Of a stretch of DNA of 49,515 nt, positions 1 to 4,770 are shown piece by piece. Within the stretch, counting starts at the first letter, position 1; each line of letters opens with the position of its first letter. The translations under genes and the position numbers were made by a program. The notes beneath the pieces were generated by a model, which worked only from the letters and a program-made list of their open reading frames with translations, was not told where the DNA came from and did no database searches. Source of the DNA: Clostridia bacterium (lineage in GTDB: Bacteria > Bacillota > Clostridia > TANB77 > RGIG9151); assembly GCA_017934955.1 (NCBI GenBank), contig JAGBIO010000013.1, forward strand, positions 1 to 49,515, given 5' to 3'.

Positions 1-403
1 GTCTCTTGAACAGCGTATTCAGGAACTGGAGGGATTGACTTCACAGCACGCTCTTAGTGATGTTGAGTTTGATTTGCTTCGTCAGTTGCTTACCATCTTC
101 AAGGATGGCATTGATGAAATGACAGTTGAACAGAAACGTGCCGCCATTCGCACCATCGTGCGCAAGGTGGTTTGGGATGGTGTCAATGCTCATGTAATCT
201 TGTTTGGTGTTCGGGATGATGAAATTGAGTATCCGGAAATTGCTGCTGTCGCATCCGATAATACCGAAGATGATGAGGAAACCGAGAAATTGGTGGACTT
301 CTCCGATGTAGATTATGAGGATGACGATATGGAGGATGAACGCCTGGGAAAAACTAATCCCCTCAGTGCATCAAAAACGCATTGGGGGGAGGATAGCAAA
401 TGA
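1..403 (+). CDS. Large serine recombinase, C-terminal end (partial)
   Basis: The open frame enters from the left window edge (frame starting at base 2) and stops at TGA 401-403, so only the last ~133 residues are seen. The segment around RQLLTIFKDGIDEMTVEQKR followed by a basic strand and an acidic tail is typical of the C-terminal region of large serine recombinases; the catalytic N-terminal domain lies outside. The stop codon falls inside the AATGA core at 399-403, where the 3' half of sigK begins. By analogy with SpoIVCA of the Bacillus skin element and its clostridial counterpart, this enzyme probably excises the element and restores sigK. The excision role is inferred from position only. 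Confidence 0.75.
   Translation, partial: SLEQRIQELEGLTSQHALSDVEFDLLRQLLTIFKDGIDEMTVEQKRAAIRTIVRKVVWDGVNAHVILFGVRDDEIEYPEIAAVASDNTEDDEETEKLVDFSDVDYEDDDMEDERLGKTNPLSASKTHWGEDSK
399..403 (+). other. Putative attachment core (AATGA) at sigK/element junction
   Basis: AATGA sits exactly where homology to sigK begins and contains the recombinase stop codon. From memory, the Bacillus subtilis skin element recombines at a 5-bp AATGA core in the same NEIL codons. The partner site lies left of the window. Confidence 0.6.
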
Positions 404-773
404 GATATTGATGTATTTACGGAGTTTGAAGAAAACGCAGAATGAGGTTTCTTTGGATGAGCAAATTGGGAGTGATAAGGATGGTAATTCGATTTCTTTA
501 ATCGATATTTTGGAGAGTGAGCAGGAGGAGACATTCGAGCAGGTAGATTTAAAAATGAGAGTGAAAGAATTGTATGGAAAAATAGAAGGAAATTTGACTC
601 CGAGAGAGAAAAAGATAATAGGGATGAGATACGGTCTTTCCGGTGCGAAGGATAAAACGCAGAAGGAAGTGGCGAAGGAGCTGAATATTTCGAGATCCTA
701 TGTTTCGAGGATTGAGAAAAAAGCTGTTGAAAAATTGCGTGCCAATATGAAAGATATTGCTAATCATTCTTAG
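399..773 (+). pseudogene. sigK: sigK 3' half (sporulation sigma-K, split gene)
   Basis: From AAT GAG ATA TTG (residues NEIL) the frame reads through NEILMYLRSLKKTQ, SLDEQIG, NSISLIDIL, then a region 4 with LTPREKKIIGMRYGL, KTQKEVAKELNISRSYVSRIEKKA. This matches the C-terminal part of the late mother-cell sigma factor SigK (regions 2.x end, 3 and 4), which recognises -35 elements through the helix-turn-helix ISRSYVSRIEK. The N-terminal half and promoter are not in the window. The same frame runs upstream into recombinase DNA, so no independent start is credible. It is a split gene whose function depends on excision rather than an ordinary pseudogene; that it is rejoined is inferred. Confidence 0.85.
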
Positions 774-935: not shown

Positions 936-1757
936 GTGGACGAACAAAAATTTATGCCGGAAGGTTGGAATTTAGACAACGTGAAGGATGAGGAAACAGA
1001 AAGAAAGATTGCTTTCTTGACAGAGGCGATGGAAAAAAACGAAACATTAGAGGGTTTGGTTACCATGGCAGATGCGGATTTTAATCTTCATGTGGATTTG
1101 GATGGGATTAAAGGGATTGTGCCGAGAATCGAAGTAAGTTCTTCGGTAGAGGCAAACGGACTTCCGAGACCGGTTGCGTCTATTACAAAGGTAAACAAGA
1201 GAGTACAGTTTAAAATTAAGGAAATCAGACGTGATGAGAATGGGGAACCTGAAGTTGTTTTATCACGAAGAGATGTAGAGAACGAGGTTCGTGAGTGGAT
1301 GTTTAACAACCTAAAAGAAGGAATGGTATTAAGCGGTATTGTTCGTAATATGGAGCAATACGGCGTATTTATAGATGTTGGCGGTGGTGTGACGGGATTA
1401 CTTCATATTGAGGATATTTCCGTTGCGAGAATTATGCATCCGAGTGAGAGATTTAAAATCGGAGATAAAATCAAAGTTATGGTGAAAAGCTTTGAGAGAG
1501 ATACCGGAAAAATCGTGTTGACACATAAGGAATTGTTGGGAACTTGGGAAGATAATATTAAAGATTTCCGTGAGGGGACGACGGTTATCGGAATTGCACG
1601 TGCGAGAGAGAAAAACGGAATTTTCGTTGAGTTAAGACCGAATCTTGTTGGCCTTGCAGATCATAAGCCGGGTGTGGAGTATGGTCAAAAGGTAAGTGTG
1701 TTTATTAAGAAGATTATTCCGGAGAAGAAAAAGATTAAATTGGTGATTGTTGGTTAA
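936..1757 (+). CDS. S1 RNA-binding domain protein (ribosomal S1-like)
   Basis: The 273-residue protein starts at GTG 936 behind an AAGGAGG site. It has a degenerate N-terminal S1-like segment (about residues 35-110), then a clear S1 OB-fold (about 122-198) with the hallmarks GMVLSGIVRNMEQYGVFIDVGGGVTGLLHIEDIS, split here as GIVRNMEQYGVFID and GLLHIEDIS, and a third weaker segment near the C-terminus. Family members bind single-stranded RNA and act in translation or RNA turnover. It is much shorter than E. coli S1 and lacks the LytB fusion seen in some Clostridia. It stands alone, with a palindromic repeat directly after its stop. The exact role is unknown. Confidence 0.75.
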   Translation: MDEQKFMPEGWNLDNVKDEETERKIAFLTEAMEKNETLEGLVTMADADFNLHVDLDGIKGIVPRIEVSSSVEANGLPRPVASITKVNKRVQFKIKEIRRDENGEPEVVLSRRDVENEVREWMFNNLKEGMVLSGIVRNMEQYGVFIDVGGGVTGLLHIEDISVARIMHPSERFKIGDKIKVMVKSFERDTGKIVLTHKELLGTWEDNIKDFREGTTVIGIARAREKNGIFVELRPNLVGLADHKPGVEYGQKVSVFIKKIIPEKKKIKLVIVG

Positions 1758-4653: not shown

Positions 4654-4770
4654 CAGGACACAATGAATTGTGTCCGTACAGTAATGGCACAATCCTTGTA
4701 GGGACAGCATTTATGCTGTCCACGGAAAAGGCAGAAAGCAGGACAGCATAAATGCTGTCCGTACAGTAAG
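4654..4770. repeat. Palindromic repeat cluster (three palindromes)
   Basis: An ACACAAT-type palindrome at 4656-4675 and two ACAGCAT-type palindromes at 4702-4721 and 4741-4760. Between the last two lies the directional spacer CACGGAAAAGGCAGAAAGCA, which recurs at other copies. The rest of the 4403-4914 gap holds copy A of the second repeat family and the promoter below. Confidence 0.85.

Follow-up and report, generated by a model that had tools for sequence, protein, structure and literature searches.

Contig C35 of a Clostridia bacterium genome assembly (1.57 Mb in 35 contigs), all 49,515 nucleotides of which form the stretch analyzed here (the window), opens with the end of a serine recombinase gene that runs directly into the 3′ half of sigK. 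This joint raises the question of where the rest of sigK lies, what kind of element interrupts it and whether that element leaves the gene on schedule during sporulation. Our analysis makes it very likely that the window starts inside a skin-like element interrupting sigK, that this element belongs to a horizontally spreading family built around a large serine recombinase (LSR) and that its timed excision in the mother cell rebuilds the gene. The anatomy of the locus, as read from sequence, confirms a skin-type sigK-intervening element, which probably leaves sigK on schedule in the mother cell.

A sigK gene divided between two contigs

The two halves of the gene and their immediate surroundings are:

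2..403, + strand: LSR C-terminus (133 residues), cut by the contig start and open to the contig edge, with a TGA stop at 401-403
399..773, + strand: sigK 3′ half (124 residues, NEILMYLR...DIANHS), including sigma region 4; assigned with TIGR02846, Sigma70_r4 and comparison with the rejoined SigK
C26:71171-71508, in the right orientation and frame: sigK 5′ half, contig-end copy
936..1757, + strand: gene for an S1-domain RNA-binding protein, outside the element, the right-hand chromosomal neighbor of sigK

A sequence-only reading of the window had claimed a serine recombinase C-terminus at its start and sigK homology beginning at the joint, and both claims are borne out. The recombinase piece, which by itself gave no match among Pfam and NCBIfam models, reaches 99% amino-acid identity to the C-termini of full-length LSRs and differs from the related locus L051 at two of 375 nucleotides. 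The full-length LSR of another relative (L060) comprises 609 residues with Resolvase, Recombinase and Zn-ribbon domains, and matches the PHROG integrase phrog_95. Positions 402-773 match the SigK models NF004471 (E 2e-45) and TIGR02846 (E 1e-42) above SigE and cover the SigK profile from position 112-114 to its end, which corresponds to the 3′ half only.

A search of the same genome for sigma region 2 detected a match on contig C26, roughly 115 bases from its end, which supplies the 5′ half that the sequence-only reading had expected to the left of the window. This half ends ...TGT GTT CAA AAT G|CTATCCTCTC, and joining the two flanks restores ...C V Q N E I L M... within one intact frame encoding a SigK of 236 residues. 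The rejoined protein is 67-68% identical to the intact SigK proteins of a genome of the same genus (G001) and one of the same family (G002), from residues 1/2 to 231/232. The left-hand neighbors of the C26 half adjoin sigK in G002 and the right-hand neighbors of the window half adjoin sigK in G001 (87% and 84% identity), where a gene 87% identical to the S1-domain gene sits directly 3′ of an uninterrupted sigK. The site is uninterrupted in both G002 and G001 (TTCAAAACGAAATT and TTCAAAATGAAGTA).

A second intact sigK, which would have pointed to an unrelated insertion scar, is not found in this genome, the next-best full-length match being SigE at 47%. With the 5′ half on C26 and no other full-length SigK, the idea that the window starts inside a skin-like element splitting sigK is supported on both counts. 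Likewise, in 24 of the 25 element-holding genomes no intact sigK accompanies the split halves or the copies truncated at a contig edge; the exception, G136, has an intact second sigK, possibly through contamination.

The contig start inside the element and the fragmentation of the bin into 35 contigs could suggest that assembly misjoined a recombinase fragment to sigK, and such breaks are common in other assemblies. We consider such an artefact exceedingly improbable here, and refuted for the family, because the identical joint recurs in dozens of independent assemblies, named strains included, with matching left ends. The sigK halves lie on separate contigs in many metagenome-assembled genomes (G114, G116, G118, G119, G120, G126 and G138), because assemblies break inside the element. 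Elsewhere in the window, a dispersed palindromic repeat family (TGTAGGGACAGCATTTATGCTGTCC / GGACAGCATAAATGCTGTCCGTACA; for example at 4697-4765) resembles REP/MITE repeats; its 14-mers occur 11-15 times in the window, and related sequence lies near the C26 end (L012, around 1130).

Attachment sites and strand exchange

Two features delimit the right end of the element:

389..398, + strand: attR element-side arm, GAGGATAGCA, the inverted counterpart of the attL element-side arm GCTATCCTC at the C26 end
399..400, + strand: AA crossover dinucleotide, positions 1 and 2 of the SigK Asn codon, with host base variation on both sides

Both ends were recovered for 13 loci of 3.6 to 27 kb (one of them, L082, partial at contig edges), and sigK is rejoined in an open frame in 13/13. 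Insertion takes place within the conserved SigK motif (E/D/Q)NE(I/L), at its Asn codon. In attL, the base preceding AA depends on the host (A 14, T 5, G 2 and C 1 in 22 left ends); in attR, so does the base following it (T 29 and C 5 in 34 right ends). Since host-varying bases flank AA on either side, comparison of the ends maps strand exchange to AA at 399-400. Because the arms on the element side form inverted repeats, the predicted circle junction (GAGGATAGCAAATGCTATCCTC) reads GAGGATAGC-AAAT-GCTATCCTC.

This placement changes the reading of the stop codon, which had been taken as a recombinase stop within a shared AATGA core. A TGA does occupy 401-403, but with exchange at AA it belongs to sigK, being made of the T of AAT and the GA of GAG; the last three bases of AATGA are thus host sigK sequence, and joints where the host codon is AAC contain no recombinase stop. 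Nor is the pentamer a direct repeat of both ends, as the expectation of a 5′ half ending in AATGA implied, since the left junction reads CAAAATGC. The further proposal that both joint products keep the stop does not hold: rejoined sigK has AAT GAG (Asn-Glu) at this point, and the recombinase frame of the circle stays open, reading AAA TGC TAT CCT....

Hosts, spread and gene content of the family

The recombinase C-terminus occurs at 40 loci in a species-representative collection, and at 34 of them sigK homology follows directly at the same codon. L061 has the same right junction 16 bases past the end of the recombinase match; the recombinase and the sigK homology of L084 are 4.5 kb apart. Two element copies, L074 and L077, have their ends at sites other than sigK; two further loci, L075 and L081, are cut short or degenerate. 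Two left-end matches from a viral-contig search (L111 and L112) also lie outside sigK and, together with L074 and L077, indicate that secondary targets exist. A right-end pattern match from that search, L113, was rejected as chance-like, with no relative of the element or of sigK beside it. The viral contigs contain no recombinase relative, and plasmid and phage records hold distant recombinases only, none with at least 60% identity in phage records.

Hosts belong to the Lachnospiraceae and Oscillospiraceae and, in the class Erysipelotrichia, also include Holdemania and Traorella. The same joint with matching left ends is present in the named strains Tyzzerella sp. An114, Clostridium fessum, Mediterraneibacter agrestimuris and Catenibacillus scindens. 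The right-end pattern appears in three of 391 sampled genomes of the window's class, its own genome included, and a search of 113 other relatives found the recombinase in none. LSR pairs that are at least 95% identical adjoin SigK halves with a median identity of 46% (378 host pairs compared), which shows that the element spreads horizontally. Two recombinases that are 51-52% identical (L119 at G210:C249 and L120 at G401:C90) likewise occupy the sigK site and share the right arm; they form a deeper clade of sigK-targeting recombinases.

Larger elements encode a MobA/MobL relaxase, a RepA_N initiator, an IstB/DnaC-like ATPase and a ParM-like protein. The relaxase of An114 matches MobA_MobL with an E value of 5.7e-75, and has relatives in C. 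fessum, Holdemania, SI.A79, Sellimonas and An169, as well as in L051, L056, L057 and L058; integrase and relaxase occur within one delimited element in relatives of the window's element. Their cargo includes TrkA/TrkH with a two-component system, GH16 and GH3 enzymes, a phosphotransferase system with GH1, a BlaR1-type peptidase with a penicillinase-repressor family protein (resistance-type), an FtsX-type permease and a glycosyltransferase. No phage structural or packaging family was detected among 30 related-element proteins scanned against Pfam, and no type IV secretion family turned up among selected open reading frames (ORFs) scanned in related elements. A protein of about 770 residues with NB-ARC/AAA and TPR domains, conserved in larger elements (L091:1459-3771 and relatives), is a possible signal-sensing regulator or defence protein. 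Judged by gene content, the family is a mobilizable, plasmid-like skin-type element and not a prophage.

The compact elements L079 (3.6 kb), L060 (4.1 kb) and L069 (4.9 kb) no longer carry Mob and Rep, and their helix-turn-helix (HTH) frames are truncated. These elements retain the recombinase and a small gene with its leader, as expected if the host still needs excision. An AAA_14/DUF4143 ATPase gene is conserved in several elements, compact ones included (L060:7191-8492, L079:3851-5146, L069, L055 and L093).

A classical prophage-type skin, as in Bacillus subtilis or Clostridioides difficile, would also place a serine recombinase gene at one element end. The B. subtilis skin (SpoIVCA / Skr) interrupts sigK with a serine recombinase (PMC6957869, PMC10745906), and the AATGA pentamer named for that system (PMC10745906) is present at the right junction here, although exchange in this family involves AA only. 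In B. subtilis, however, the recombinase lies beside the 5′ half in the opposite direction, and an upstream sigma-E promoter drives Skr and the recombinase (PMC6957869, PMC10745906), whereas here the recombinase lies beside the 3′ half, co-directional with it, and the small gene occupies the other end on the opposite strand. The C. difficile skin uses a sigK site different from that of the B. subtilis skin and is prophage-like with 19 genes (PMC5025042), whereas the attR of this family contains the B. subtilis pentamer and its members carry mobilization and replication genes in a wide host range. Clostridium tetani and C. perfringens likewise have sigK split by a serine-recombinase element, in their case a phage genome inserted as a prophage (PMC5553647, PMC5025042). 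Set against the recombinase position, the scan without phage structural families, the mobility, replication, partition and carbohydrate or resistance-type genes found instead, and the lack of close recombinases in phage records, a prophage-type skin is quite unlikely.

Non-viral elements excised during sporulation also interrupt a sporulation gene in Bacillus cereus: gin lies in gerE (PMC5595907) and, in biovar anthracis, island IV lies in sigK (PMC10745906), whereas larger members of the present family carry MobA/MobL and RepA_N and occupy several families in two classes. IME_Rho_tet (PMC12904643) shares the serine recombinase, the relaxase, inverted end repeats and spread among gut Bacillota; it targets mostly MAFF2-type ORFs, in contrast to the sigK target and the sporulation-type promoter on the small gene found here. 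The open-access papers searched contain no description of this sigK element family. Compared with known skins, the family stands apart in being mobilizable and plasmid-like, in its wide host range and, likely, in an integration-dependent recombinase C-terminus.

Proposed timed excision and the predicted circular form

A gene encoding 72-74 residues lies near attL on the opposite strand in 13/13 two-ended elements and, unlike the recombinase, played no part in finding them. Its product is a probable excision factor, a candidate recombination directionality factor (RDF). Just upstream, the leader contains the conserved block ATAGCGGACAACTTCTCTCTCATAGACT, and ATA-N17-CATARAYT occurs in 13/13 leaders against 0.02 expected from shuffles, although the 13 leaders are homologous, so that their counts do not represent independent cases. 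In 16/21 host sigK promoters GCAC-N14-20-CATANANT is present (0.05 expected from shuffles); these promoters share the −10 type of the small gene, which indicates that this −10 is the mother-cell type used by the hosts. We interpret the small-gene promoter as sigma-E-like by motif; a loose sigma-E pattern gives several chance matches per element, and only the conserved leader position was used. A sigma-A-type TTTACT-N17-TATAAT precedes most LSR genes of the window's subfamily. The HTH gene at the left end, which would be driven by the sigK promoter, was ranked second as an RDF candidate: compact elements lose it and keep the small gene. Median dN/dS values of 0.16 for the small gene, 0.08 for the HTH gene and 0.05 for the LSR gene denote purifying selection, with synonymous sites near saturation for distant pairs.

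This arrangement resembles the C. difficile skin (CD1231 recombinase / CD1234 RDF), in which sigK is also split and rebuilt (PMC5025042), the recombinase is made from a sigma-A promoter and the factor is controlled by sigma-E and SpoIIID (PMC5025042). In common are an LSR with a sigma-A-type promoter and, encoded apart from it, a small (here putative) factor whose promoter is of the sigma-E type. By analogy, the recombinase would be made throughout growth from its sigma-A-type promoter, and the 72-74-residue RDF would appear in the mother cell only, from the sigma-E-type promoter, perhaps with SpoIIID. Together they would recombine attL with attR, releasing the element as a circle and rebuilding sigK when SigK is needed, while the forespore would retain the element. 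Between hosts, the circle may be mobilized by its own relaxase and inserted by attP × attB recombination. The window's genome encodes SpoIVA, SpoIIID and several sporulation-type sigma factors, including two adjacent genes on C33, the first SigE-like.

Besides the homology of the leaders, several observations weigh against this scheme. The interior of the window's own element is absent from its assembly, where searching with recombinase domains and with a 10-kb segment of the L051 locus returned neither element interior nor recombinase N-terminus; the small gene, promoters and cargo are accordingly those of relatives. The sigma-A motif is lacking upstream of the LSR in L060 and L079. The small protein has no database match and no relative in plasmid or phage records, and its AlphaFold model is poor (pLDDT 61), too uncertain for searching. 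The presence of the LSR in all elements reflects ascertainment, as the LSR was used to find them, and the viral contigs contain no attP junction or free circle. SpoIIR (TIGR02837) was not detected in the own genome (G000), which could reflect a divergent SpoIIR, another activation route or eroding sporulation.

The missing SpoIIR would also fit a mobile element that merely inactivates sigK, in carriers that sporulate poorly or never, with excision serving transfer only. The family is clearly mobile, with relaxase genes, and copies exist outside sigK (L074, and L077 in G133, where a sigma search found one factor only). However, both sigK halves remain open and rejoin in frame in every two-ended element, the recombinase is under strong purifying selection, and transfer alone leaves unexplained why compact elements devoid of Mob and Rep keep the recombinase and the sigma-E-type-led small gene. 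Simple inactivation of sigK is thus an improbable account, though the foremost competitor to timed excision.

The predicted circle would have a further property. In the circle configuration the recombinase frame runs on in 13/13 elements (DSK-C/T-YPL...), by about 206 residues that include two HTH domains in intact elements. Five left ends from two subfamilies (SI.A79, Sellimonas, An427, L082 and L083) lack any in-frame ATG, GTG or TTG before codon 36, and codons 8-36 are constrained only in the recombinase frame (pN/pS 0.31, against 1.07 and 0.70 for the alternative frames; SI.A79-type compared with L082-type). The HTH extension has no relative in plasmid and phage records. As the simplest reading, we hypothesize a recombinase–HTH fusion interrupted by integration. 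In intact elements the circle would encode a longer recombinase with a C-terminal double HTH, and insertion into sigK, which may truncate the recombinase, would supply the host stop and remove the HTH part. The full proposal, to which we give an even chance, places attP inside the recombinase gene. A circle form of about 815 residues with a C-terminal double HTH would give way upon integration, through the borrowed sigK TGA, to the 609-residue form that serves timed excision. Integration would then act as a switch of protein domains, carried by a plasmid-like, mobilizable element that travels with a sporulation gene through two classes of bacteria. If true, the fusion in the circle would give elements a new means of sensing their own integration.

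Annotation pipelines would call sigK truncated or missing in metagenome-assembled genomes whose contigs end inside the element. The size series, from 27 kb mobilizable to 3.6 kb compact, resembles a natural deletion series marking the genes needed for timed excision, and predicts a new RDF. Elements that leave sigK during development have been described in a small number of Bacillus and clostridial species and have been called an exception in clostridia (PMC5025042); here, one recombinase family occupies the same site in many gut Bacillota. Near-identical recombinases beside very different SigK proteins indicate that skin-like elements can be contagious rather than relics.
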